From the NCBI GenBank assembly GCA_028288365.1, contig JAQBNU010000017.1, forward strand, positions 1 through 64,000: DNA of 64,000 nt, read 5' to 3'. Source of the stretch: Chitinophagaceae bacterium. GTDB lineage: Bacteria > Bacteroidota > Bacteroidia > Cytophagales > Cytophagaceae. Position numbers and translations under genes: made by a program. Shown piece after piece: positions 5,396 to 17,289 of this stretch. Numbering within the stretch: the stretch's first letter is position 1; the number at the start of each line of letters is the position of its first letter. The notes below the pieces were generated by a model. The model was not told the origin of the DNA. It saw nothing but the letters and a program-made list of their open reading frames with translations, and made no database searches.

Positions 5396-5586
5396 TTGTG
5401 ACTCACTTTACAATCCAATATTAGACTAGAGCCACTATTTTTATAGCAGGTGTTGTACGACGTAATGATTTGGTCAAACATTTTAGACGATGAAGTGTTT
5501 ATCTGTTAAAATCAATCTTTTATTGCAACCAAATAATTTTTTCACCAACGAAATCCAATCCTTAACCCTTGTTCGTAGATATACAC

Positions 5587-5928
5587 ATGATACACGTTTT
5601 GAAATATGCACTGTTGTTTGTTCTGGTCTTTATGATCTACATCGTGGTCAGCACTTCACTGGAATCTAATCTCTATACCGAATGGGATTTCCTGGCGGCT
5701 ATACCCTGGATGCGTGCTACGCTTTGGGATTTTTACGCCAACATTTTAGTCATCTATTTGTGGGTGTTGTATAAAGAAAAAAAGGTGTTGGTGCTCTTAC
5801 TCTGGGCCGTCTTGTTCTTTTGCTTAGGCAGCATTGCAACGATCGGTTATGTGTTGATTCAATTGTTTCGGGCGCAACCGGGCGACAGCATCAAAGAGGT
5901 ATTGGTACAAACTAAACGTTCCATTTAG
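5587..5928 (+). CDS. DUF1475-like small membrane protein
   Basis: A 113-residue protein from the ATG at 5587 (a TTG six codons upstream is possible) with three hydrophobic segments: roughly residues 4-24, 45-60 and 65-90. The conserved-looking TEWDFLAAIPWMRATLWDFY stretch between segments 1 and 2 resembles the DUF1475 family of inner-membrane proteins of unknown function. Its stop lies two bases before the next gene (DUF1295), so the two are almost certainly co-transcribed. Small membrane proteins of this kind recur beside DUF1295 and cyclopropane-synthase genes. The function is unknown. Confidence 0.7.
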   Translation: MIHVLKYALLFVLVFMIYIVVSTSLESNLYTEWDFLAAIPWMRATLWDFYANILVIYLWVLYKEKKVLVLLLWAVLFFCLGSIATIGYVLIQLFRAQPGDSIKEVLVQTKRSI

Positions 5929-5930
5929 TC

Positions 5931-6731
5931 ATGCAGATTGTATTTCTTTTCCTGCTTTCGTTTTTCACCGTCTCCTTACTGATGTTTGGAGTATGGCTGC
6001 TGCAATTAAAAAATAAAAATGCGGGCATTGTCGATATCATCTGGGCCATTAGTTTCATGGTGTCCGCGATGGCGTTTAGTTTTTTTACAGAAGGTTATGA
6101 CGTAAGAAAACACATCTTGATCGTTCTGGTTTCCTTGTGGTGCCTGAGATTGGGCTTGCATTTATTCATTCGCAACTGGGGAAAAGAAGAAGACCTGCGC
6201 TACACACAACTCCGCAAAGAGTGGGGAGCGAAAGCCAACAGAAACATGTTTTTGTTTTTCGAATTTCAGGCCATCACAGCAGCGGCTCTTTCTATTCCTT
6301 TCATTCTGATTTTAAATAATGCATCCACTCAATTCTCTATCCTTGAAATAACGGGTTATGTGTTGATTCTCGTAGGCCTGATCGGAGAAGGCATTGCCGA
6401 TTACCAATTGAAAAAATACAAAGCTACTGTCCCCAAAGGAGGCATCTGTAATGTGGGGCTTTGGAACTATTCACGACATCCTAATTATTTCTTCGAGTGG
6501 TTGGTATGGGTCGCTATCTTTCTCATAGCACTAACCGCGCCCTATGGCTGGGTATCGATCTATTGTCCTTTGCTGATGTGGCACTTTCTCAATAACGTGA
6601 CAGGAGTAAAAGCAACGGAGGAACACATGGTGAAAACGAGAGGAGAAGCTTATATCAACTACCAGAGGACGACATCAGCTTTTATTCCCTGGCCAATAAA
6701 GGAACGAGTGAAGAGAGACGAGGTACGATAA
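5931..6731 (+). CDS. DUF1295 membrane protein (steroid 5-alpha-reductase / ICMT-like)
   Basis: A polytopic membrane protein of 266 residues with about seven hydrophobic segments. The C-terminal NYSRHPNYFFEW motif (179-190) is the signature shared by DUF1295, steroid 5-alpha-reductases and isoprenylcysteine methyltransferases; its Arg/His/Pro/Asn residues bind the NADPH- or SAM-type cofactor. In other bacteria DUF1295 genes sit with cyclopropane-synthase-like and amine-oxidase-like genes in membrane-lipid modification clusters, as here. Oddity: the last residues (KERVKRDEVR) are encoded by the left arm of a dispersed palindromic repeat, so the natural C-terminus has probably been replaced by repeat sequence. 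Confidence 0.85.
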   Translation: MQIVFLFLLSFFTVSLLMFGVWLLQLKNKNAGIVDIIWAISFMVSAMAFSFFTEGYDVRKHILIVLVSLWCLRLGLHLFIRNWGKEEDLRYTQLRKEWGAKANRNMFLFFEFQAITAAALSIPFILILNNASTQFSILEITGYVLILVGLIGEGIADYQLKKYKATVPKGGICNVGLWNYSRHPNYFFEWLVWVAIFLIALTAPYGWVSIYCPLLMWHFLNNVTGVKATEEHMVKTRGEAYINYQRTTSAFIPWPIKERVKRDEVR

Positions 6732-6775
6732 ATTAAATATCCATTCCTCCTTGCTCGTTCCTCGTCCCTCTTCAA
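6697..6775. repeat. Palindromic repeat 'GAGGGACGAGGAACGAG', copy 1, overlapping the DUF1295 3' end
   Basis: The right arm (about 6745-6772, CTCGTTCCTCGTCCCTCTT) is the reverse complement of a slightly diverged left arm (about 6711-6728, AAGAGAGACGAGGTACGA). The left arm is inside the coding sequence and includes the region of the stop codon. Related single arms directly follow the stop codons at 10239 and 62697. Confidence 0.72.
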
Positions 6776-6803
6776 AAGTGAATGATCAATTAACAATATA
6801 ACT

Positions 6804-7835
6804 ATGTGGTACACCCGTTTATTAGAAAAGAATGTAGTGCCTGATTTTCTCATCAGAAAAGGCATCAGAAGTCTGTTGAAGCAGCGTTTGAAAGATGAAA
6901 CAAACGATGACCTGGAGGTGCAGCAACAGCACTTTATGGACTTGCTGAAAACGTTCAAGACCTCGGCTATCGCAGTAGAAACAAAGGCTGCCAATGAGCA
7001 GCACTATGAAGTGCCTACTGAATTTTATTTGCACACACTGGGCAAAAACTTAAAATACAGCAGTGGCTACTGGAAAAAAGGAAATAATGATTTCGATCGT
7101 TCGGAAGACGATATGCTGGAATTGACCTGTCAGCGTGCAGAGTTGAAAGACGGCATCGAAATTTTAGAATTGGGTTGCGGATGGGGATCATTGACTTTAT
7201 TCATGGCGGCGAAATATCCCAAGGCAAACATTCTGGCGGTTTCCAATTCGGCGACACAACGTGCGCACATCGAAGAGACTGCCAGACAAAGAGGGTTGAG
7301 CAATGTGAAAATCATCACGGCTGATATCAATGTGTTTACAACGGACCGTCGCTTCGACAGAATTGTATCGGTGGAAATGTTTGAGCACATGAGAAACCAC
7401 GCACAGTTGTTTGAGAAAATATCAGGCTTCTTGAAAGATGAAGGCAAAATGTTCATTCATATTTTTACTCATAAAGAACTGACCTATCTGTTCGAAGTGA
7501 AAGACGATACGGATTGGATGTCGAAGTATTTCTTCACCGGCGGCATGATGCCTTCTGATCATTACCTGTTGTATTTTCAGGAGCACTTTACCATACAAAA
7601 TCATTGGAGAGTAAACGGTACACATTATTCCAAAACATCGGAAGCCTGGCTCAGTAAGATGGACAGCAACAAAGACATCATCATGCCTTTGTTTGAAAAA
7701 ACATATGGTAAAGACCAGGCGGTAAAATGGTGGGTATACTGGAGAATTTTTTTCATGTCATGCGCTGAACTATGGGGCTATGACGAAGGGAAAGAATGGT
7801 TCGTGAGTCATTACTTGTTTCAGAAAAAAGCGTAA
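6804..7835 (+). CDS. Cyclopropane-fatty-acid-synthase-family SAM methyltransferase (short form)
   Basis: A SAM-dependent methyltransferase of 343 residues. Residues 60-95 carry the AxxxHYEVPTEFYLHTLG..YSSGYW block typical of the cyclopropane-synthase/coclaurine N-methyltransferase group. Motif I is ILELGCGWGSLTLF (about 120-133), followed by AVSNSATQ and SVEMFEHM. It differs from the full-length homologue at 11121 in lacking the long N-terminal domain, and it ends with a W-rich WWVYWRIFF segment. It probably methylates an unsaturated fatty-acyl chain or another lipid. It lies 72 bases after DUF1295 with a palindromic repeat between them, and a terminator follows. Confidence 0.85.
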   Translation: MWYTRLLEKNVVPDFLIRKGIRSLLKQRLKDETNDDLEVQQQHFMDLLKTFKTSAIAVETKAANEQHYEVPTEFYLHTLGKNLKYSSGYWKKGNNDFDRSEDDMLELTCQRAELKDGIEILELGCGWGSLTLFMAAKYPKANILAVSNSATQRAHIEETARQRGLSNVKIITADINVFTTDRRFDRIVSVEMFEHMRNHAQLFEKISGFLKDEGKMFIHIFTHKELTYLFEVKDDTDWMSKYFFTGGMMPSDHYLLYFQEHFTIQNHWRVNGTHYSKTSEAWLSKMDSNKDIIMPLFEKTYGKDQAVKWWVYWRIFFMSCAELWGYDEGKEWFVSHYLFQKKA

Positions 7836-7859
7836 AGCAGTGAAAGCTGTCAGAAGAGA

Positions 7860-7890
7860 AAAAACCGTCTGATCAGGCGGTCTTTTTTAT
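7860..7890 (+). terminator. Terminator after the short CFA-like methyltransferase
   Basis: An ACCGTCTG at CAGGCGGT hairpin (one G-T pair) followed by CTTTTTT, 25 bases past the stop codon. It ends the first lipid operon (5587-7835). Confidence 0.85.
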
Positions 7891-7914
7891 TAAATGAACT
7901 ACACTCTCTGTACG

Positions 7915-8080
7915 ATCCTTTTTCTTTTCTTTTGCTCACCCAAAAGAAAAGAATCCCGAGGCTTCGGGAAAAAGGGAGCCACGAAAAAAATGGAAGAAGA
8001 TATTTGAGTATTGATAAACGATACGAAGTTAATTCCAAACGATATCTTCTTCCATTCGCTCTTTTCGTGGACGCCAGCCG
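7915..8080. repeat. Compound palindromic element in the gap between the two lipid operons
   Basis: In the 417-base gene-free stretch 7836-8252, three nested or adjacent hairpins occur: CTTTTCTTTTG/CAAAAGAAAAG (7923-7951), CCCGA/TCGGG (7955-7968), and a long stem in which CCACGAAAA...ATGGAAGAAGATAT (7979-8003) pairs with ATATCTTCTTCCAT...TTTTCGTGG (8042-8070). This looks like a mobile or structured non-coding element, not a gene. Short frames through it are by-products of the symmetry. The remaining 8081-8252 is AT-rich with nothing recognised. Confidence 0.75.
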
Positions 8081-8252
8081 CACCAGGTTTGCTGATTTCA
8101 ATAAGGATTATACGATAATTTTTTTATTGTATAAAATAGTTGCTTTTAGGTTGTTATGATTTTGGAAAGAAAGATTTGGTGAGAGTATAAAATATTCCTT
8201 ATTCAAAATCCAGTGAGGCAGCCGGTGTCGTATATCTTATAAATAGGATGTT

Positions 8253-8972
8253 ATGAGAACCAGAGGGTACACGTTATTGATTCTATGCCTGTCTTTTGTG
8301 TTTGTCTTTGCAAAGCTCAATACAAAAGAAGAATACCTGACTTACCGTGGCATTGCTACAGACTTGCGTTCCAATAAATTTTATTATGTGGAAGAACATA
8401 AGGAGATCATGGAGAATCATGTGTTGAAAGAAACGGTGATTCAATACAGAGATTCAGCCGGTGTCGTGATGGCTAAAAAAGTAATTGATTATTCGAACAA
8501 TAAGGTTACCCCTTCTTTCGAACAAACCGATTACCGTGATGGGTATACCGAAGGTGTTTCATTTTCTGAGCATGAATTGATTTTTAAATACAGAAAAAAC
8601 AAATCAGAATCGTTGAAGTCAAAAACAATCCAGACGCCGGATAATCTGGTAGTGGATGGAGGTTTCAACTATTACATCAAAGGGAATTGGGGGGAACTAA
8701 CCGATGGAGAAACGATGGTGTTTAATTTTGCGGTACCTTCTCAGTTGGATTATTTTTCCTTCCGTTTGTACAAAGAGTCAGAACAAAAAGACGCGGTAGT
8801 ATTCCGAATGGAGCCGGACAATTTTGTCTTGAGAAAACTGGTAGATCCTATACGCGTTACTTATAAAATGTCCACGAAGAGAATTGTAAAATACGAGGGA
8901 CTTTCTAACATCAATGATAAAAAAGGGAAGAGTTATTTAGTGAAGATCATGTACCCGAAAGTTGGTCCTTAA
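8253..8972 (+). CDS. Uncharacterised exported protein of the lipid-modification operon
   Basis: A 239-residue protein with an N-terminal signal-like segment (RTRGYTLLILCLSFVFVFAK, no lipobox), then a beta-rich, charged body. A DGGFNYYIKGNWGELTDGET stretch (about 127-150) leads into a FNFAVPSQLDYFSFRLY strand pattern. I do not recognise a named domain with certainty. Proteins of similar size and layout sit beside CFA-synthase/DUF1365/amine-oxidase genes elsewhere. It starts the second lipid operon; the next gene begins 13 bases after its stop, so a role in the same pathway is inferred, possibly as a periplasmic lipid-binding or handling protein. Confidence 0.72.
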   Translation: MRTRGYTLLILCLSFVFVFAKLNTKEEYLTYRGIATDLRSNKFYYVEEHKEIMENHVLKETVIQYRDSAGVVMAKKVIDYSNNKVTPSFEQTDYRDGYTEGVSFSEHELIFKYRKNKSESLKSKTIQTPDNLVVDGGFNYYIKGNWGELTDGETMVFNFAVPSQLDYFSFRLYKESEQKDAVVFRMEPDNFVLRKLVDPIRVTYKMSTKRIVKYEGLSNINDKKGKSYLVKIMYPKVGP

Positions 8973-8985
8973 TTTTAAGAAAGAT

Positions 8986-10239
8986 ATGAATATAGCCATC
9001 ATAGGCACAGGCATCGCCGGAATGGGATGCGGCCATTTTTTACACGAGAAATATAATCTCACCTTCTACGAACAAAACAATTATGTTGGAGGTCACACGA
9101 ATACGGCGTATGTAGAAGGCAATAAACCGGTAGATACAGGCTTCATCGTGTTCAACGACATCACGTATCCTAACCTGGTACGCTTATTTAAAAAGCTGAA
9201 CGTGGAAGTCTATCCTACAGACATGTCTTTCAGTGTGCAGCATGTACCGACTCAGCTTGAATATTGCGGTTCCAGTTTGAATTTGATTTTTGCACAGCGC
9301 AAAAATATTTTCAATCCAAAATTCATAAAATTCATCTTACAGGTCAATCGCTTCAACAAAGAATGTACAAAAGTGTTGGACAATCCGAAGTATGAAAAAT
9401 ATTCCATGGCAGATTTTGTAAGAGAAGAAGGATACAGCGATGACTTCTTATACAAGTACCTGGCACCGATGAGTTCGGCGTTGTGGTCTACACCTACAGA
9501 TATCACCATTAAATTTCCGGCAGTTTCGCTGGTACGATTCTTCAAGAACCACGGTTTACTGGGCTTGTCTACGCAGTACCAATGGAAGACCGTTCGCAAT
9601 GGCAGCTGGGCCTATAGAGACAAACTCATTGCTCCTTTCAAAGATAAAATAAAAACCAACACGCGTGTGCAAAATGTAGTGCGTGTTGGAGATAAAGTAA
9701 GAGTATACGACGATCGCGGTGGTGAGTCAGAATTTGACAAAGTCATCTTTGCTTCACATGCCGATCAGACCTTGAGGATGTTGTGTGATGCTACACCATT
9801 GGAGAAGTCATTGCTGAGTAATTTTGAATACCAGAGGAACATCGCGACCCTACATACAGATGCGTCACTGATGCCGAAGATCAAAAAGACCTGGTCTGCC
9901 TGGAACTACCGCATTGAAACTGTGAATAAAGAATTGGTAGCTCATACCATTTATTACATGAACAAACTGCAGGACATTTCTGAGAAGAACGATTATTTCT
10001 TATCGATCAATCAACCGAATACGGTGGATCCTGCGAAGGTGTTGAAAACGATCGAATACGAACATCCCATCTTTACTCCTGCTGCTTATAAGGCACAGGG
10101 AGAATTGCACAAGCTGAATGAAAACGGCCAGGTGTATTTCTGCGGAAGTTATTTCAAATACGGTTTCCATGAAGATGCTTTTACTTCTGCTGTAAATCTT
10201 TGTTCCAAGCTGTTGGGTAAAGATGTTTGGGAAGAATAG
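8986..10239 (+). CDS. FAD-dependent amine-oxidase-like protein of a fatty-acid modification cluster
   Basis: A flavoprotein of 417 residues from the ATG at 8986; upstream in-frame codons would overlap the previous gene. A Rossmann FAD site, MNIAIIGTGIAGMGCGHFL, is at residues 1-19, the YVGGHTNT second FAD loop at 33-40, and a C-terminal VYFCGSYFKYGFHEDAF flavin-contact segment closes the fold. It belongs to the NAD(P)-binding/amine oxidase group that in Proteobacteria accompanies CFA-like methyltransferases and DUF1365 under alternative sigma control. There the pathway converts unsaturated phospholipid acyl chains to methylated and furan fatty acids. A desaturase/oxidase role on acyl chains is inferred from that context. 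Confidence 0.85.
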   Translation: MNIAIIGTGIAGMGCGHFLHEKYNLTFYEQNNYVGGHTNTAYVEGNKPVDTGFIVFNDITYPNLVRLFKKLNVEVYPTDMSFSVQHVPTQLEYCGSSLNLIFAQRKNIFNPKFIKFILQVNRFNKECTKVLDNPKYEKYSMADFVREEGYSDDFLYKYLAPMSSALWSTPTDITIKFPAVSLVRFFKNHGLLGLSTQYQWKTVRNGSWAYRDKLIAPFKDKIKTNTRVQNVVRVGDKVRVYDDRGGESEFDKVIFASHADQTLRMLCDATPLEKSLLSNFEYQRNIATLHTDASLMPKIKKTWSAWNYRIETVNKELVAHTIYYMNKLQDISEKNDYFLSINQPNTVDPAKVLKTIEYEHPIFTPAAYKAQGELHKLNENGQVYFCGSYFKYGFHEDAFTSAVNLCSKLLGKDVWEE

Positions 10240-10272
10240 AGAGGGACGAGAGAGCAGGAACGAGGGACGAAT
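10238..10272. repeat. Repeat 'GAGGGACGAGGAACGAG', copy 2 (single orientation)
   Basis: AGAGAGGGACGAGAGAGCAG then GAACGAGGGACGAATAAA starts at the stop codon of the flavoprotein gene. It is the same motif family as at 6697-6775 and 62696-62722. It separates the flavoprotein from DUF1365 by 85 bases inside an otherwise tight operon. Confidence 0.65.
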
Positions 10273-10324
10273 AAACATAAATCCAGAGAGCATTTGATTT
10301 TCGTAAGTATAAAAAAGAGACGCG

Positions 10325-11116
10325 ATGAATTCTTGTATCTATAAATGTTCAGTCATGCACCATAGACTGGTTCCTAAAAAGAACAAGTTCAACTATGATG
10401 TGTTCATGTTCTATGTAGACCTGGATGAATTGGAACAATTGTCGAAGAAGAATTGGTTATTTGGATTCAATGCCTTCAACCTGTTTAGCTTTTACAATAA
10501 GGACCATGCGAATACCACGGAAGGTATTTTAGATCGTACGTCTTCTGTGAAATTGAAAATAGTAGAATACATCAAAAGCAAAGGGATCAATACTGTACCA
10601 TATAAAATTACGTTGCTGAGCAACCTGACTACGATGGGGTATTTGTTCAATCCGGTTTCTTTCTATTATCTGTTTGACAAAGACAACAAACCATTTTGTT
10701 CGGTTGCAGAAGTGAGCAATACATTTGGTGAAATGAAATTATATTTGTTGGATTCGGAGACGCTGGTAGGAGATACGTTTTCTACTATGGCACCTAAAAA
10801 TTTCTATGTGTCTCCTTTTTCACAAGCCAATACTTGGTTCCATTTCATCCTGAAAGTTCCTGGGGATAAGCTTCAACAGCGAGTGGATGATTATACCGAT
10901 GAGAAAGGAGATCGTTTTTTATTGAGTGCGATTTCAGGAGTAAAAGAAAAATTATCGGATGCGAACATGATCAAACATTTTCTTTCGATTCCCTTCATCA
11001 CACTCAAAGTAATTGTGCTGATTCACTGGCAGGCGTTTAAAATTTATTTGAAGAAGATGCCTTATTATAAAAAAAGTCAAGATCAACAGTTTCAACAACA
11101 ATACATTAAACTTTAA
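10325..11116 (+). CDS. DUF1365 family protein
   Basis: A 263-residue protein with the DUF1365 pattern: N-terminal YKCSVMHHRLVPKKNKFNY (residues 5-23) followed by FMFYVDLDEL, then GYLFNPVSFYYLFD (about 103-116), SNTFGEMKLYLL and a DANMIKHFLSIPF ... WQAFKIYLKK C-terminal helix. DUF1365 genes are almost always next to a flavin amine-oxidase and a CFA-synthase-like gene, exactly as here. The biochemical role is unsettled; work on proteobacterial furan/methyl fatty-acid clusters places relatives in acyl-chain modification. It lies 4 bases upstream of the CFA-like gene, so they are co-translated. Confidence 0.9.
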   Translation: MNSCIYKCSVMHHRLVPKKNKFNYDVFMFYVDLDELEQLSKKNWLFGFNAFNLFSFYNKDHANTTEGILDRTSSVKLKIVEYIKSKGINTVPYKITLLSNLTTMGYLFNPVSFYYLFDKDNKPFCSVAEVSNTFGEMKLYLLDSETLVGDTFSTMAPKNFYVSPFSQANTWFHFILKVPGDKLQQRVDDYTDEKGDRFLLSAISGVKEKLSDANMIKHFLSIPFITLKVIVLIHWQAFKIYLKKMPYYKKSQDQQFQQQYIKL

Positions 11117-11120
11117 CCGT

Positions 11121-12365
11121 ATGGATACTTCCCTGTCATTGATTAGAAACCGCAAATTCTCTTTGGTAGAATTATTGGTACTGAGAACATTTGGCAAGAT
11201 GACCAGAGGCAGACTACACGTAGAGATGCCGAATGGAGAACATTTATATTTCGGAGACGGAGAAGATGCCGTGTCTGCCAAGATTACGGTGTACAGGTCT
11301 TCTTTCTTTAAAAAATGTGTGATGTACGGCGACATCGGTTTCGCAGAAGCTTATGTAGACGGCGATTGGGGAACCAATGACATTGTATCGGTGGTGTCAT
11401 GGTTTATTCTGAACATGGAGAATAATCCATCGATCAGCGGAACGAAGACCAGTTCTTTCATTACGAATCTGTTTTCAAAAATAAACCGTTGGTATCATTT
11501 GTCCAGAAAGAATACGATCACCGGTTCCCGCAAAAATATTTCAGAACATTACGATTTGGGAAATAGTTTTTACACACTGTTTCTTGATCCTACCATGACC
11601 TATTCCAGCGGGATCTTCAGAGAAGAGTCCACTACACTGGAAAAATCACAAATAGAAAAATACGATCGCTTGTGTCGTTTGTTGAAATTAAAATCCACCG
11701 ATCATTTGTTAGAGATCGGCAGTGGTTGGGGAGGATTTTCTTCTCATGCGGCTAGAAATTACGGTTGTAAAATTACCACCGTTACGATTTCTCAGGAACA
11801 GTATGCGTATGCCAAACAACGTTTTGCTGACGAGAATATTTCTGATGAGGTCAACATCCTGTTGGAAGATTACAGAAACATCGAAGGTAAATTTGATAAA
11901 ATCGTTTCCATTGAAATGCTGGAAGCCGTGGGACATCAATTCATGCCGCGTTACTTTGAAAAATGTAACGCGTTGCTGAAAGAAAACGGATTGCTGGCTT
12001 TGCAAGTGATCACCTCTCCGGATGCACGCTATGACGAGATGCGCAGAGGAGTAGACTTTATACAAAAACATATTTTCCCCGGGTCTTTGCTTCCATCTGT
12101 GGCACGCATCAACCGGTGCATCAACGAAGCTTCTAATTTGAATTTGTACGACATCAAAGACATTGGCATAGATTATGCGAAGACATTGAACATCTGGTGT
12201 GAGGAATTCAATAAGAAAAAAGAAGAGATCATGGCGCTTGGAATGGATGCTACGTTCATTAGAAAATGGAACTATTATTTTCAATATTGTGAAGCGGCTT
12301 TCAAAATGCGCAACATCAGTGTGATGCAATTGGTATATACCAGACCTAATAATTTCGAATTCTAA
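11121..12365 (+). CDS. Cyclopropane-fatty-acyl-phospholipid synthase family protein
   Basis: A SAM-dependent enzyme of 414 residues, the full family length. An N-terminal substrate-binding domain (about 1-130) is followed by the family signature NISEHYDLGNSFYTLFLDPT with MTYSSGIF (about 138-165), motif I LLEIGSGWGGFSSHAA (about 195-210), TISQEQYAYAK and KIVSIEMLEAVG. It transfers a methylene or methyl group to unsaturated phospholipid acyl chains. A second, shorter homologue lies at 6804, so the district has two non-identical methyltransferases. Spacing is 4 bases from DUF1365 and 1 base to the hydrolase downstream. Confidence 0.92.
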   Translation: MDTSLSLIRNRKFSLVELLVLRTFGKMTRGRLHVEMPNGEHLYFGDGEDAVSAKITVYRSSFFKKCVMYGDIGFAEAYVDGDWGTNDIVSVVSWFILNMENNPSISGTKTSSFITNLFSKINRWYHLSRKNTITGSRKNISEHYDLGNSFYTLFLDPTMTYSSGIFREESTTLEKSQIEKYDRLCRLLKLKSTDHLLEIGSGWGGFSSHAARNYGCKITTVTISQEQYAYAKQRFADENISDEVNILLEDYRNIEGKFDKIVSIEMLEAVGHQFMPRYFEKCNALLKENGLLALQVITSPDARYDEMRRGVDFIQKHIFPGSLLPSVARINRCINEASNLNLYDIKDIGIDYAKTLNIWCEEFNKKKEEIMALGMDATFIRKWNYYFQYCEAAFKMRNISVMQLVYTRPNNFEF

Positions 12366-12366
12366 T

Positions 12367-13212
12367 ATGAATCGTTTTGTTCTGCTTGTGATCTTGTCTC
12401 TCTTGTGGAGTTTGTCTGTATTCGCCAATCGTTACAAGGTGCATAAGAACATAGACTACGTGAAGGCTTCTGAGCGTGATTACGATAACGTACGTCATAA
12501 GCTGGATGTCTATGCACCCAAAGAAAAATACAACACAGGAAAAGTCTTTGTATTCATTCATGGAGGAAGCTGGGATACCGGTCGCAAGGAACTGTATAAA
12601 TTTGTGGGCCGTGCCTTTGCGGCCAATGGCATCGTAACGGTGGTCATCAATTATCGGTTGAGTCCTGTCGCTAAATACGATGGCATGGCATACGATTGTG
12701 CCAGAGCCGTTGCCTGGGTAAAGGAAAACATCGCAACGTACGGAGGAAATCCGAAGGAGATATTTGTTGGGGGACATTCTGCAGGCGGACAGCTGGCAGC
12801 ACTGATTGTGACGGATCCCACTTACTTTGATAAAGTAGGAATATCTAATCCTGTGAAAGGATGTATTCTCAATGATCCGTTTGGATTGAACATCTACAAA
12901 TACCTGGAACACGGTTACGATGGAGATGCGACTTTTCGCAGAACTTTCACCAATTCACCGCAGGTATGGAAAAAAGGTTCACCGATTTTCCATGTGAAGA
13001 AAGACACGATCAGGTATTACATCATTCACGGCGGCAATACGTATCCGGCTGTGATGGGAGACAGCGAGGACTTTCACGCAAAAAACATAGAAGTTGGAAA
13101 TGCTTCGGAGATCCATACGGTGCGGCACAAGCGGCATATACCGATGGTATTGTTATTCTTTCGTAAGCACAATAAAGAAGTGAAGAAAGCGATTGCCTTT
13201 ATGATGAAGTAG
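12367..13212 (+). CDS. Secreted alpha/beta hydrolase (BD-FAE/HSL-like esterase), paralogue 1
   Basis: A 281-residue protein with an N-terminal signal peptide (about 1-20, cleavage after VFA). It has the oxyanion FIHGGSW (63-69), the nucleophile elbow GGHSAGG with Ser138, and a late RHKRHIPM with the probable catalytic His. It is an esterase/lipase-type hydrolase of the periplasm or outer surface. It begins one base after the CFA-like stop, so it is part of that operon. A paralogue at 15429 has the same motifs and the same ILNDPFGLN segment, near-identical even at base level, so the two arose by duplication. The substrate is unknown; a lipid ester is plausible from context. Confidence 0.88.
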   Translation: MNRFVLLVILSLLWSLSVFANRYKVHKNIDYVKASERDYDNVRHKLDVYAPKEKYNTGKVFVFIHGGSWDTGRKELYKFVGRAFAANGIVTVVINYRLSPVAKYDGMAYDCARAVAWVKENIATYGGNPKEIFVGGHSAGGQLAALIVTDPTYFDKVGISNPVKGCILNDPFGLNIYKYLEHGYDGDATFRRTFTNSPQVWKKGSPIFHVKKDTIRYYIIHGGNTYPAVMGDSEDFHAKNIEVGNASEIHTVRHKRHIPMVLLFFRKHNKEVKKAIAFMMK

Positions 13213-13227
13213 TAAATGATTTATTAC

Positions 13228-13306
13228 TTGTTGTTGGCATCCCGCCAACAACTGACTGTATTAACACGTCTCGTGCCGGCACTTGTTGGCGGGACGCCAA
13301 CAAGAA
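13228..13306. repeat. Paired-hairpin repeat 'TTGTTGGCG', copy 1
   Basis: Two hairpins lie 29 bases apart: GTTGTTGGC atcc CGCCAACAAC (13230-13252) and CTTGTTGGCg gga cGCCAACAAG (13282-13304). They directly follow the hydrolase gene. The same paired design is at 17184-17289 and 35493-35598. Confidence 0.85.
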
Positions 13307-13338
13307 TATAAGTTTGTTTTATAGTTAACGTTTAACCT

Positions 13339-13370
13339 GAAAGGCTCCGGAAATTCACCGGAGTCTTTGT
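13339..13370 (+). terminator. Terminator upstream of the sigma factor gene
   Basis: AAAGGCTCCGG aaattca CCGGAGTCTTT, followed by a short T-rich run. It closes the second lipid operon, so the sigma gene needs its own promoter in the 90 bases that follow. No clear TAnnTTTG box was found there. Confidence 0.7.
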
Positions 13371-13508
13371 TCGCTTTATACAAAGATTTCGTTCGGAAAT
13401 TGTTTTGAATTTTTCTTTGTATATCTAACGATACTGGGTAGCTTAGTAAAATAAAGAAAAGCCATCGCTCCAAAAATAAAAATATCGGAAGAAGAACTCA
13501 TTAGATTA

Positions 13509-14009
13509 TTGATATCTAAAGACAAGAAGGGTTTTGATATCCTTTACAACAATTATTCTTCGTCGTTATATGGAGTCATTCATTTGATCGTAAAGAAAGA
13601 AGAATACTCAGAAGAAATTCTCCAGGATACGTTCCTTAAGATTTGGAAAAAAATAGATGATTACGATGCATCGAAAGGTCGTTTTTTTACCTGGATGTTA
13701 AACATTGCCAGAAACATGGCGATTGATAAATTAAGATCAAAAGAATTTAAGGCAGGAAATAAAACCGATGACATCTCCAGCTACGTAGATATAGGAGATA
13801 CAGGATATGCAGACAAACACAACATGGATCACATCGGTGTGAAAGACGTGTTAAATAAGCTGCCGGAAGAACATCGTTTCCTGATACAAAAAATGTATTT
13901 CGAAGGATATTCTCAATCGGAAATTGCAGAAGAATTTGATATCCCATTAGGGACGGTTAAAACAAGAGTACGGACAGCAATGTCTAAACTTAGAGAACTA
14001 TTTCAATGA
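13509..14009 (+). CDS. RNA polymerase ECF-type sigma-70 factor
   Basis: An extracytoplasmic-function sigma factor. Region 2 runs from the N-terminus through KGFDILYNNYSSSLYG and EEILQDTFLKIWKK (core and -10 binding). Region 4 is LPEEHRFLIQKMYFEGYSQS with EIAEEFDIPLGTVKTRVRTA, a -35-binding helix-turn-helix. The TTG at 13509 is the only conventional start in frame, but the frame stays open back to 13455, and the codons from 13464 (APKIKISEEELIRLL) encode the region-2 leader usually present in this family. The true start may therefore be the ATC at 13464. It overlaps the anti-sigma gene by 4 bases (ATGA). Confidence 0.9.
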   Translation: MISKDKKGFDILYNNYSSSLYGVIHLIVKKEEYSEEILQDTFLKIWKKIDDYDASKGRFFTWMLNIARNMAIDKLRSKEFKAGNKTDDISSYVDIGDTGYADKHNMDHIGVKDVLNKLPEEHRFLIQKMYFEGYSQSEIAEEFDIPLGTVKTRVRTAMSKLRELFQ

Positions 14010-14791
14010 ACATAAAAGAGTACATATCGTCAGGAATACTGGAAACTTACCTACTGGGTGGGTTAAGTGAAGCTGAAGCGGGCGAGGTGGAAACTTATGT
14101 AAAGCAATATCCGGAAATACGTGCTGAATTGGATAAGCTGGAAGGCGATCTGGAAAACATTGCTTTATCATATGCGAAAGCACCATCGCCGTCTTTGAAA
14201 TCCAGGATCGCTTCCGAGTTAGATTTCGTGGAAGAAAAAGAAGTGCAGATCATTCCTATTCCTTCTTTCTATCGCATGGCTATCGCTGCGTCTGTGGTAC
14301 TTGCCATCATCTCTACTGCCAGTGCAGGATATTTCTGGAACGAATGGCAGAAGGCAGAAGGACGTGTGATTGCGTTGGAAGTAGAAAAGAGTTCTTTAGC
14401 AAACAACATCAACCTGACCAAACAGGAATTAGATAAAACCAACAGCTACTTAAGTCTGGTACAAGATACCAATTCTGTATTGATTACACTGAAAGGTTCA
14501 GCCTTATCACCGACCGCTGCTGCGAAAGTACTTTGGAACAAGAAGACACAGGAAGTTTACTTAGGTGGGTTAGCGGCTCTTCCTGTTCCAACAGCTGAAC
14601 AACAATACCAGCTCTGGGCCATCGTAGACGGACAGCCTGTAGATGCCGGAGTATTTGATATGGAAAATAAAAATGTACTGCAACAATTGAAAACCGTTGC
14701 CAATGCACAGGCCTTCGCTGTGACGCTGGAGAAGAAAGGCGGTAGCCCGACTCCTACACTGGCAGCGTTGTATCTGATAGGAAATGTATAA
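14006..14791 (+). CDS. Membrane anti-sigma factor, RskA-like
   Basis: A 261-residue single-pass membrane protein. A cytoplasmic N-terminal anti-sigma domain (SGILETYLLGGLSEAEAGEV, residues 9-28) is followed by one transmembrane helix (about 91-110), a coiled-coil-like stretch (112-150) and a C-terminal extracytoplasmic RskA domain (ALPVPTAEQQYQLWAIVDGQ, PVDAGVF). It holds the upstream ECF sigma factor inactive until a cell-envelope signal arrives. The ATGA start/stop overlap with the sigma gene indicates translational coupling. It lacks the His/Cys zinc-binding and cupin layout of ChrR. A strong terminator follows. Confidence 0.9.
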   Translation: MNIKEYISSGILETYLLGGLSEAEAGEVETYVKQYPEIRAELDKLEGDLENIALSYAKAPSPSLKSRIASELDFVEEKEVQIIPIPSFYRMAIAASVVLAIISTASAGYFWNEWQKAEGRVIALEVEKSSLANNINLTKQELDKTNSYLSLVQDTNSVLITLKGSALSPTAAAKVLWNKKTQEVYLGGLAALPVPTAEQQYQLWAIVDGQPVDAGVFDMENKNVLQQLKTVANAQAFAVTLEKKGGSPTPTLAALYLIGNV

Positions 14792-14808
14792 TCTCAATAT
14801 CTTATAGA

Positions 14809-14843
14809 ATAAAAAGCCTCGGTCATTGACCGGGGCTTTTTAT
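14809..14843 (+). terminator. Terminator after the sigma/anti-sigma operon
   Basis: AAAAAGCCTCGGTC att GACCGGGGCTTTTT: a near-perfect stem with flanking A and T tracts, about 20 bases past the stop codon. Confidence 0.92.
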
Positions 14844-14915
14844 TAGAGCTAACAGGAGAATTATTTTTGTATAAAGATTAGTAGTTGTTTGTTGTGATTT
14901 ATCACTATTTAGGTT

Positions 14916-15172
14916 AGGGCATTTCCCTCCTTCGTCGGGCCGGGCTTTCGCCACTCGCTTTCCGACTTATAGCGATACGTTTAAATCAATCCTATTTGTC
15001 GGAAGAGCTCAGACAATGGCTCAATCCCTAATGCAACAGCTTTGCGTTAGGGATCGAGCAGAAAGCCCGAAGTGCGCGGACTTGTGCGGTTGGCGGACTT
15101 GGAGCGAGAGCCCGGCCGCCACTATAAGCTTGTATAAAGCGAGCAAGATGAATTGGCGGTAACGCCCTCATC
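14916..15172. repeat. Large dispersed repeat 'GGGCGTTCCC', copy 2 (both ends present)
   Basis: This fills the core of the gene-free stretch 14844-15428. The left end is AGGGCATTTCCCTCCTTCG with GGCCGGGCTTTCGCCACTCG, and the right end is GGACTTGGAGCGAGAGCCCG ... ATTGGCGGTAACGCCCT. The outer ends are mutually inverted (AGGGCRTT / AACGCCCT). An internal hairpin ATCCCTAATGC ... GCGTTAGGGAT lies at about 15024-15054. Blocks are shared with copies at 5314, 32547 and 35655. The remainder, 15173-15428, is AT-rich with no feature I can name and should hold the promoter of the next operon. Confidence 0.85.
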
Positions 15173-15428
15173 ATTCTGATGATTGATTCTCCTGATCATC
15201 TTCTCTCTCCAAAAACTATATCTTTAGATTTTCTTTAGGTCCAATAAGTATATAGTCGCCTATTTTAATTGTGAGTAGCAGATACTCATAAGTTACTTCA
15301 CATAGATTACCTATCACTAATAATATCTTTTTTTTCTATCAACTAATTGGTATTTTCATTGCATCAAATAGCTTGTGCATCATTATTGATCAACAACAAA
15401 ACCAAGAAACAAGCTAACCTAATCCACC

Positions 15429-16298
15429 ATGAAAATAGTATTGTATGTGTTCATTTTTCTGAACTGTAGTTTATGCGCTTGGGCAAAAAAGTATACTGTT
15501 CATAAAGACATTCCATACACGGCTGTTACAGACCCTGACTACGACAAAGGAAGCCATTGCTTGGATGTATACGTTCCTAAAGAACATATAAAAAAGAAAG
15601 GCAAAGGAAAAGTATTGGTCTTCATTCATGGCGGAGCATGGAAAGGAGGTTCCAAGGATTCCCCAAGACATCGGGCAGTTGGGAAATCATTTGCATCGAA
15701 TGGTATCATCACCGTGGTGATCAACTACAGGCTTTGGCCAGAAACAAAATATTATGGAATGGCCGATGATTGCGCGCGCGCCATTGCGTGGGTGAAACAA
15801 AACATTGCACAGTACGGAGGCAATCCAGAAGACCTCTATGTTTCTGGACATTCCTCAGGAGGCCATCTCGCGGCGCTGGTGACCACCGATTCCAGTTACC
15901 TGATGAAAGCCGGTGTGACGTCCAAAGTGCCCATAAAGGGTTGTATACTCAATGATCCGTTTGGATTGAACATGTTTGAATACATGGCGCAAGGTAATGT
16001 GGTGGATGTTTTTTTATTCCGAATCATTTTTACTGATTTGCCTACAGAGTGGATGAAAGGTTCTCCTTATTACCACATCAACAAAGACGATGTGCGCTAC
16101 TACATGATCTACGGAGCGGAGACCATGGCCTTTGTAAAAGAGAGCAGTAAAGAATTTCACGAGCGAAATCGTTTTGTCGGTAATTATTCTACCATACACC
16201 GGGTCAATTGGCGAACGCATATTCCTATGTTGGATCTGTTTTGTCATAAGCATAGTAGAGAATTGAAAAAGGCCGTTGCGTTCATGCAAGAGAAGTGA
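15429..16298 (+). CDS. Secreted alpha/beta hydrolase (BD-FAE/HSL-like esterase), paralogue 2
   Basis: A 289-residue protein with a signal peptide (about 1-19, LCAWA), FIHGGAW (65-71), nucleophile elbow SGHSSGGH with Ser142, and the late NWRTHIPMLDLF segment carrying the likely catalytic His. Motif for motif it matches the hydrolase at 12367, including the ILNDPFGLN segment after the nucleophile; the elbow reads HSSGG instead of HSAGG. The two paralogues flank the sigma/anti-sigma pair. Its stop overlaps the GTG start of the UbiA-like gene, so these two form an operon. The substrate is unknown. Confidence 0.88.
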   Translation: MKIVLYVFIFLNCSLCAWAKKYTVHKDIPYTAVTDPDYDKGSHCLDVYVPKEHIKKKGKGKVLVFIHGGAWKGGSKDSPRHRAVGKSFASNGIITVVINYRLWPETKYYGMADDCARAIAWVKQNIAQYGGNPEDLYVSGHSSGGHLAALVTTDSSYLMKAGVTSKVPIKGCILNDPFGLNMFEYMAQGNVVDVFLFRIIFTDLPTEWMKGSPYYHINKDDVRYYMIYGAETMAFVKESSKEFHERNRFVGNYSTIHRVNWRTHIPMLDLFCHKHSRELKKAVAFMQEK

Positions 16299-17149
16299 AG
16301 TACCTGATCAACATACGTGATTTTTTTATATTGGGGCATGTCTGGCTGGCGCTGTGTGCGGTTGCTCAGGGCTTGTTGACCTTTCATTTGATTCAGGCAA
16401 CTATTTCATTGCCAGTATGTGCGATTTTATTTCTCGCTACTTTTTTTATTTATAACATCAGAGCGCTATATGATTCATCGTTGCGTGGGGAACAAAAAAA
16501 AACCGCACCGCTTCATGTCCGATGGATGTCTTCTCATCTACACATGCTGTGGGGACTATCTTCTCTGGCAGCGATAGGCATTTTGATCTTCACCTGGATG
16601 TTGAAAGAGAAAACGATTGTTGTTTTTTCGATAACAGGATTGCTGGCTTTGTCTTATTCAATCCCTTTGTTATCCAGTAAAGGTGGTCTGAGGCAGCTGC
16701 CAGGATTCAAAGCCTTTTTAATTGGCATCGTGTGGACATTGAGTACCGTATTGATTCCGGTGATGGAATCGACATTGGTGATGGATGCGGCGCAGGTGAC
16801 GGTGTTGATGATCAAACGATTTACATTATTCTTTGTGTTGGCACTGGTCTGCGATATACGCGATGAACAAACAGACAGAGAACATCAGTTGCATACCATT
16901 GCTACGTATTTGGGAGCAGCCAAGGCAAGAATGCTATGTCTGGGGTTATTGGTCATAGAAGAATTTATTATTTATACATACGATTATAATTTGGATCGTG
17001 ACGTGTTTTATAGACTGACTCTTTTTACTTTGCTTACTGCTGTTGTTGTGTGGTCTACGAAGTATACAAAGAATGTATTTTATTATCTGTTTGTAGCGGA
17101 TGGTATGACCATGCTTCAGTATGTGTTGGTGTGTATGGTATTAGTGTAA
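16295..17149 (+). CDS. UbiA-like prenyltransferase family membrane protein
   Basis: A polytopic membrane protein of 284 residues with about eight hydrophobic segments. The first Asp-rich motif position reads NIRALYDSSLRGE (residues about 49-61) and the second reads DIRDEQTDREHQLHTI (about 188-203), the spacing expected for UbiA-type aromatic or lipid prenyltransferases. The first motif is weak (one Asp, an Asn and a Glu), so activity is not certain. The start is GTG, overlapping the previous stop by 4 bases. A role in polyprenyl or pigment lipid synthesis is inferred. Homologues in Bacteroidota are mostly annotated as hypothetical. Confidence 0.7.
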   Translation: MKYLINIRDFFILGHVWLALCAVAQGLLTFHLIQATISLPVCAILFLATFFIYNIRALYDSSLRGEQKKTAPLHVRWMSSHLHMLWGLSSLAAIGILIFTWMLKEKTIVVFSITGLLALSYSIPLLSSKGGLRQLPGFKAFLIGIVWTLSTVLIPVMESTLVMDAAQVTVLMIKRFTLFFVLALVCDIRDEQTDREHQLHTIATYLGAAKARMLCLGLLVIEEFIIYTYDYNLDRDVFYRLTLFTLLTAVVVWSTKYTKNVFYYLFVADGMTMLQYVLVCMVLV

Positions 17150-17150
17150 G

Positions 17151-17289
17151 AAGTGATCAGTGGACAGTTGTTAGTATCAACTTCTTGTTGGCGTCTCGCC
17201 AACAAGTGATGGTTTATGAACGGATGCCATTTGTTTAATAACGTTCATCGACTGTTCATTGCAACAGATGTTGGCCGGACGCCAACATC
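17151..17289. repeat. Composite repeat: 'GTGATCAGTGGACAGTTG' arm plus paired-hairpin repeat copy 2
   Basis: Starting at the UbiA-like stop codon, a single arm of the GATCAGTG family (17151-17173) is followed by the paired hairpins CTTGTTGGCgtctCGCCAACAAG (17184-17206) and GATGTTGGCcggaCGCCAACATC (approximately 17267-17289). The 60-base spacer is like that of copy 3 at 35493-35598. Confidence 0.85.

Follow-up and report, generated by a model that had tools for sequence, protein, structure and literature searches.

The first 64,000 nucleotides (nt) of contig JAQBNU010000017.1, from a 3.8-Mb draft genome of a member of Bacteroidota (hereinafter, the window), carry a cluster of lipid modification genes next to a gene pair for an extracytoplasmic function (ECF) sigma factor and an RskA-type membrane anti-sigma factor. 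We read this region as a membrane lipid protection regulon, in which furan fatty acid genes would be controlled by a SigK/RskA-like membrane switch that carries its own internal feedback promoter, and put the probability of this reading at about two in three. The observations behind it are the gene identities, the distribution of a promoter motif, its conservation at synonymous sites, the lack of ChrR, and the lack of cysteines in the sigma factor and RskA. The source genus is sampled here through metagenome assemblies alone, all of them drafts, with congener records titled Chitinophagaceae bacterium or Cytophagaceae bacterium. All 12 genes listed in an earlier sequence-only reading of this DNA were recovered on the plus strand, with the same coordinates, from open reading frames and Pfam searches; 11 have Pfam support (weak for the UbiA-like gene), and the gene for an exported protein has no Pfam match. 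The lipid genes appear to form three transcription units, each headed by an ECF-type promoter motif:

5551-5577 (+), ECF-type promoter motif 1, AAATCC-N17-CGTA (then GATATA), before the DUF1475 gene (congener alignment)
5587-5928 (+), DUF1475 membrane protein (Pfam E = 2e-17)
5931-6731 (+), DUF1295 membrane protein of the steroid reductase/ICMT-like class (Pfam E = 1e-67)
6804-7835 (+), S-adenosylmethionine-dependent methyltransferase, probably of the coclaurine N-methyltransferase (CNMT)/FufM type (Pfam CMAS-like, 7e-40; PDB 6gkv)
7864-7881 (+), terminator-like hairpin, end of unit 1
8206-8232 (+), ECF-type promoter motif 2, AAATCC-N17-CGTA (then TATCTT), before the exported protein gene (congener alignment)
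8253-8972 (+), exported beta-barrel-like protein with a DUF1849-like fold (no Pfam match; structure model)
8986-10239 (+), UfaD-type flavin adenine dinucleotide (FAD) oxidoreductase with an amine oxidase domain (Pfam, 5e-15)
10279-10305 (+), ECF-type promoter motif 3, AAATCC-N17-CGTA (then AGTATA), before the DUF1365 gene (congener alignment)
10325-11116 (+), UfaO-type DUF1365 protein, putative furan-forming monooxygenase (Pfam E = 7e-69; PMC7380195)
11121-12365 (+), UfaM-type methyltransferase of the cyclopropane fatty acid (CFA) synthase family, full CMAS domain (Pfam, 4e-86)
12367-13212 (+), secreted BD-FAE esterase 1 (Pfam)
13340-13368 (+), terminator-like hairpin after esterase 1, separating the lipid unit from the sigma unit

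The bacterial genetics of furan fatty acids, which are protective lipids, is known from a few Proteobacteria. In Rhodobacter sphaeroides and Rhodopseudomonas palustris, a methylated furan arises from cis-vaccenoyl chains through UfaM (CFA family), UfaD (an FAD oxidoreductase), and UfaO (DUF1365), three proteins sufficient for furan production in R. sphaeroides, and a second methyl group is added by FufM (PMC7380195). The UfaM, UfaD, and UfaO types are encoded together in the window, so that the lipid module is, by gene content, a member of the Ufa pathway, and their order, UfaD-UfaO-UfaM (8986-12365), is the D-O-M order of R. palustris RPA2571-2569 (PMC7380195). All three types co-occur with the FufM type in 35 of the 41 full-flank relatives in the genome collection. 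The link of the DUF1295/DUF1365/flavoprotein/CFA set to furan fatty acids and to RpoE-ChrR, made in the sequence-only reading, agrees with the literature (PMC7380195, PMC5507510, PMC4336711). The count of two CFA-type methyltransferases given there is not supported: the full-length product of 11121-12365 matches CFA synthases in the PDB comparison, but that of 6804-7835, then described as a short CFA-like enzyme, is nearest over its full length to coclaurine/pavine N-methyltransferases (E = 5e-82 to CNMT 6gkv over residues 6 to 341; best CFA synthase, 4e-30).

We assign the product of 6804-7835 to the FufM type by family, through LIME1, rather than by alignment to FufM, because FufM shares 38% identity with Arabidopsis AT4G33110/LIME1 (PMC10940516) and because the SAK1-dependent singlet oxygen response of Chlamydomonas jointly induces CFA1, CFA2 (annotated as a CNMT), and the DUF1365 and DUF1295 genes (PMC4067076). 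These are four of the gene types in the window, although in Chlamydomonas their regulation is eukaryotic and the genes are unlinked. Taken together, the genes appear to make up a full (dimethyl-)furan fatty acid pathway, with its product predicted from them. The cluster differs from the known Ufa/FufM pathway in that the FufM-type gene is clustered with the others, whereas R. palustris RPA0924 is unlinked; in the addition of DUF1475, DUF1295, a periplasmic barrel, and a secreted esterase; and in coming from another phylum. A fatty acid desaturase gene opens the cluster in many relatives; the source genome encodes three desaturase homologues outside the cluster (54 to 66% identical), which could be the substrate suppliers.

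Alternatively, the cluster might make ordinary cyclopropane or methyl-branched fatty acids, with the DUF1365 and flavoprotein steps not forming a furan. This would fit the match of the full-length methyltransferase to CFA synthases, and the function of DUF1365 is known from two alphaproteobacteria; its structure model (predicted local distance difference test [pLDDT] score, 92) has weak nitrobindin-like matches with template modeling (TM) scores of about 0.3. We nevertheless hold a product of this kind to be rather unlikely, considering the sufficiency of UfaM, UfaD, and UfaO for furan formation in R. sphaeroides (PMC7380195) and the retention of the D-O-M order together with the FufM-type gene in 35 of 41 loci. 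A mechanism for DUF1365 deduced from its fold was dropped, and no cofactor is claimed for it, because the fold matches are weak.

The promoter motif of the predicted furan fatty acid units was discovered by aligning the upstream regions of congeners. Its CGTA element is separated from the start codon by 9, 20, and 19 nt for motifs 1 (ATG at 5587), 2, and 3, respectively. The three motifs are kept in all congeners (loci L028 to L031 for motif 1), and AAATCC-N17-CGTA also precedes the DUF1475 gene in the relative G400. Genome-wide pattern searches found 17 exact sites in the source genome, against 4 in the reversed control, and 16 to 19 in its congeners, against 5 to 9. A large regulon defined by the strict motif was dropped, as none of the 17 sites beyond the three lipid ones was supported as a promoter. 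In distant Bacteroidota, xxATCC-N16-CGTA precedes 28 of 315 module genes, compared with 2 of 508 others (p = 2e-10); within the same upstream set, other spacers between 12 and 21 gave at most 3 matches, other -10 words gave no signal, and the -35 variant AACC was about equally enriched (27 versus 2). The consensus of RpoE-ChrR promoters is TGATCC-N16-CGTA (PMC5507510, PMC4336711); the window motif is of this class but differs from it in the first two -35 bases and in the spacer, and the distant Bacteroidota share its N16.

Which sigma factor reads this motif is suggested by its copies within and around the sigma/RskA pair, the features of which are as follows:

13416-13446 (+), conserved candidate promoter for sigma (TTTG ... 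TAGCTTAG; upstream alignment), which, from the Bacteroidota promoter consensus, we take to be of the housekeeping type
13464-14009 (+), ECF sigma factor (coding conservation from 13464, first TTG at 13509; Pfam)
13761-13791 (+), intragenic motif copy, AAAACC-N17-CGTAGATA, in the sigma2-sigma4 linker, upstream of rskA
14006-14791 (+), RskA-type single-pass membrane anti-sigma factor with the RskA_C domain, PF10099 (Pfam E = 5e-18)

The codons that spell AAAACC and ACGTA in the intragenic copy are invariant at synonymous sites in 13 partner sigma factors of the Sphingobacteriales type, while neighboring codons vary; all 4 motif codons are among the 11 invariant ones out of 86 (p = 1.6e-4). In the sigma gene of L228, the protein is altered and the DNA reads AAATCC-N16-CGTA. 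The two lineages have the intragenic -35 element in different codon registers, and each has the spacer of its own lipid promoters, 17 in the source family and 16 in Sphingobacteriales. Only one other sigma gene of the source genome, L191, holds an internal sense-strand match (TGATCC-N16-CGTA). It was rejected as the motif reader and is attributed to chance, because the match is lost in congeners whose protein is 99 to 100% identical.

A matrix trained only on the lipid promoters of the source genus and G400, with a background of 1 site scoring at least 18 per 460 kb, finds the motif beside the pair in relatives that lack the cluster at that place. The sites are one of 18.1 in G405, between rskA and a CHRD domain gene in a genome without the lipid cluster; a site of 22.4 in G406, between sigma and a divergent MFS gene on a contig that does not carry the cluster; and a site of 23.0 (N16) near the pair in G409, which has no lipid cluster. 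With 0.009 sites expected in the flanks examined, the Poisson p value is 1e-7 for the three genomes and 4e-5 with G409 left out. In G406, the assembly of which is 69% complete, the pair (RskA 72% identical) adjoins esterase 1. In two loci from another phylum, GCATCC-N16-CGAT points toward the lipid operon and, on the other strand, GCATCC-N16-CGTT/CGTA toward a divergent gene for a SigK-like sigma factor; these loci are L098, from a record titled Methylacidimicrobium, where RskA adjoins sigma, and L076, where RskA was not found next to sigma. GCATCC-N16-CGTA heads the module in L090, L091, and L106. RskA_C is encoded in 21 of 24 module-bearing genomes and, in a phylum sample, in 9 of 11 genomes with DUF1365 compared with 147 of 385 others (p = 0.005, kinship ignored). 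On these grounds, we infer that the RskA-partnered sigma factor recognizes the promoters of the lipid units directly.

The pair could instead be an unrelated neighbor, with another ECF sigma factor of a shared promoter class reading the lipid units. The source genome has 21 region-2 sigma genes; RskA homologues occur in 15 of 19 genomes of the source family, whereas DUF1365 occurs in 5 of the same 19; and the sigma block, a separate unit, flips between congeners. Such an arrangement is improbable, however: the motif occurs inside the sigma gene partnered with RskA, next to the pair in relatives free of the cluster, and between sigma and the lipid operon in loci from another phylum, and the other ECF genes of the source genome are neither preceded by a strict site nor hold a conserved internal one.

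Several points weigh against the regulon proposed here. The motif was looked for upstream of sigma in the window, as a sign of autoregulation, and was not found there, the internal site being found instead; the G409 site is oriented away from the sigma gene; and G404, G401, and G413 have no clear matrix site near the sigma pair. Two of the 11 DUF1365-bearing genomes in the phylum sample lack RskA. The motif tests postdate the sight of the motif, and the related loci are not independent, because many of the distant ones are from Mucilaginibacter and Pedobacter; the matrix, intragenic, and other-phylum lines of evidence use data apart from those that revealed the motif. All the regulatory evidence is sequence pattern, and the assignments to FufM, UfaD, UfaO, and UfaM of Rhodobacter and Rhodopseudomonas are made at the family level. 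Finally, in L023 to L026, L078, and L080, the module adjoins a CarH/LitR-like regulator, instead or as well. Primary control by light through such a B12-dependent regulator, with the ECF promoters being secondary, would accord with the MerR and B12-binding genes in these loci, with the photolyase, glutathione peroxidase, or lipocalin genes in some of them, and with the control of ufaM by LitR-type regulators in Pseudomonas (PMC9758184). For the window we consider it very improbable, as the ECF motif stands ahead of all three units and the genes examined around the cluster in the window include none that is CarH-like.

With the sigma/RskA pair taken as the regulator, its position deserves a comment. 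The sequence-only reading placed it inside one co-oriented district. The pair is, as judged from genome comparison, a separate unit, older than the cluster in the source family and also found in relatives that have no cluster. Three congeners carry the block 13398-14841 in the opposite orientation with respect to either the lipid genes or esterase 2, so that the statement that all genes lie on one strand holds for the source species but not for these three. A sigma gene inside the lipid operon was rejected, considering the terminator-like hairpin between them, the inverted block, and the separate upstream region of sigma. An invertible switch was rejected, too, as the nearby inverted repeats are dispersed palindromes that do not bracket the block alone. 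Relatives with an unlinked sigma pair, which the sequence-only reading had named as evidence against its proposal, do exist; as a test of regulation, however, linkage is the wrong one, because what is conserved is the regulatory motif and not the gene position.

The sigma and rskA genes overlap by 4 bp. Coding conservation of sigma starts at a noncanonical codon, ATC, at 13464. The same extension past the first ATG, GTG, or TTG to an ATC-like codon, with a stop a few codons upstream, is seen in L029, L030, L136, L133, L128, and L130, so that a noncanonical sigma start codon seems to be used in seven genomes of the source family; infC is another gene that uses one. RskA has one hydrophobic span near residues 82 to 110, which suggests a cytosolic N terminus and an outer RskA_C domain. 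The sigma factor has no Cys residues, and RskA has neither Cys nor His.

In agreement with the proposal that a Bacteroidota version of the system has an RskA-type membrane anti-sigma factor in place of ChrR, RskA_C is present and the zinc/cupin anti-sigma domain of ChrR (PF12973) is found nowhere in the source genome. The lipid regulon resembles in its working the RpoE-ChrR regulon of R. sphaeroides, Shewanella, Pseudomonas syringae, Vibrio, and Stenotrophomonas, with an ECF sigma factor, lipid targets that include the UfaD/UfaO pair, and a nearly identical promoter, yet it is not a member, because ChrR is absent. It further differs in the anti-sigma factor, a membrane protein without zinc ligands or cysteine; in the spacer, one nucleotide longer here; in the motif, located inside the sigma gene rather than upstream of it; and in that no photolyase is seen among the cluster genes of the window. 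The closest PDB match of the sigma factor is SigK, by a very small margin over R. sphaeroides RpoE. The pair shares with Mycobacterium tuberculosis SigK-RskA (ECF19; 4nqw) the RskA_C anti-sigma factor, the single membrane span, and the overlap of the two genes. However, the sigma factor scores below the curated SigK cutoff (119.6 versus 226 bits), lacks the cysteines of a SigK-type disulfide, and has other targets. Paired sigma cysteines (133/183) are retained by 94% of ECF18 members and by 56% of ECF19 members (PMC7509140).

From the gene identities and motifs we infer the enzyme activities, the sigma-promoter recognition, the signal, and the release of sigma by conformational change or proteolysis. 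The substrate would be a monounsaturated phospholipid acyl chain, produced by the desaturases encoded elsewhere and acted upon by the enzymes in turn. The UfaM-type enzyme (11121-12365) would methylate the chain, the UfaD-type flavoprotein (8986-10239) would form a methyl-diene, the UfaO-type DUF1365 protein (10325-11116) would insert an O2-derived oxygen, closing the furan ring, and the FufM/CNMT-type enzyme (6804-7835) would add the second methyl, with DUF1475, DUF1295, the periplasmic barrel, and esterase 1 in auxiliary roles around the pathway. The sigma factor (13464-14009) would start all three lipid units through AA(T/A)CC-N17-CGTA promoters, held at the membrane by RskA until released by an extracytoplasmic signal, probably membrane damage or photo-oxidized lipid; an origin of the signal in the envelope is suggested by the RskA architecture. 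Since Cys is absent from both proteins and His from RskA, a ChrR-type zinc site and a SigK-type disulfide are excluded as the sensor, and the likeliest route of release is a conformational change driven from outside or proteolysis. Freed sigma would transcribe the lipid units and, from the promoter inside its own gene, rskA alone; RskA made without full-length sigma would then shut the response off. Full activation of RpoE in R. sphaeroides needs RSP_1090/1091 (UfaO/UfaD) and CfaS, and ChrR is subject to degradation by proteases (PMC7074977); a possible lipid feedback here could be modeled on this.

More broadly, we give even odds to the view that, for the furan fatty acid module, the part played elsewhere by RpoE-ChrR falls to RskA-partnered ECF sigma factors, throughout Bacteroidota and, as a separate case, in Verrucomicrobiota-type genomes. 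These factors would use an almost unchanged promoter code, respond to the envelope rather than the cytosol, and be damped by a conserved intragenic promoter that yields anti-sigma factor but no sigma. Only 6% of Bacteroidota ECF sigma factors have a recognized class I anti-sigma factor nearby (PMC7406223), and the open literature offered nothing on point for RskA with singlet oxygen or for ECF control of this module in Bacteroidota. If true, the same protective module would be used across Bacteroidota and beyond under a membrane-held switch and a nearly identical promoter code, a common, unstudied type of sigma/anti-sigma pair would gain a predicted regulon, and the system could separate oxidized membrane lipid from oxidized protein as the trigger. 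The intragenic feedback promoter would in itself be a compact regulatory device.

The other features examined near the cluster are the following:

14808-14844 (+), inverted repeat 3' of rskA, at the end of the block inverted in congeners
15429-16298 (+), secreted BD-FAE esterase 2 (Pfam)
16295-17149 (+), UbiA-like membrane protein (weak Pfam match, 27.3 bits versus a cutoff of 34.2)

Two of the genes that the sequence-only reading counted in the set are left out of it here. No ECF-type promoter motif was found for esterase 2, which leaves its membership unsupported, and the UbiA-like gene was rejected on account of its weak Pfam score and of its being seen at this site in the source species only, congeners having no such gene in the interval from esterase 2 to the DUF985 gene. 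The two secreted esterases are paralogs located on either side of the sigma pair; esterase 1 starts 1 bp past ufaM and is kept across the genus.

The model of the exported protein (8253-8972; pLDDT 90) matches the DUF1849 barrel 6ntr with a probability of 1.00, TM scores of 0.40 to 0.53, and an E value of about 1e-3. In one congener (L033 8016-8627, equivalent to L029 11675-12289), it lacks about 50 central residues, through an internal deletion or an assembly fault. In many Mucilaginibacter loci (L034, L038, L049, and others), a distant esterase of the same fold replaces the exported barrel between the FufM-type and UfaD-type genes.

Short dispersed palindromes of the TGTTGGCGnnncGCCAACA type (13228-13306 and 17182-17287) occur in pairs to either side of the stretch from sigma to the UbiA-like gene, and in L030 and L029 different palindromes are located at comparable positions. 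The loci with a CarH/LitR-like regulator come from other Bacteroidota or Ignavibacteria-type genomes and, with a glutathione peroxidase, a second DUF1295, a photolyase, or a lipocalin in some of them, represent a light-linked version of the module. In L038 (3550-18203) and similar Mucilaginibacter loci, the module is followed at its 3' side by a different ECF sigma factor, DUF1223, an MsrP-like molybdopterin oxidoreductase/cytochrome b561 pair, and AhpC/TSA, and is preceded by a gene for SelR (methionine sulfoxide reductase B), a neighborhood of oxidative protein repair.

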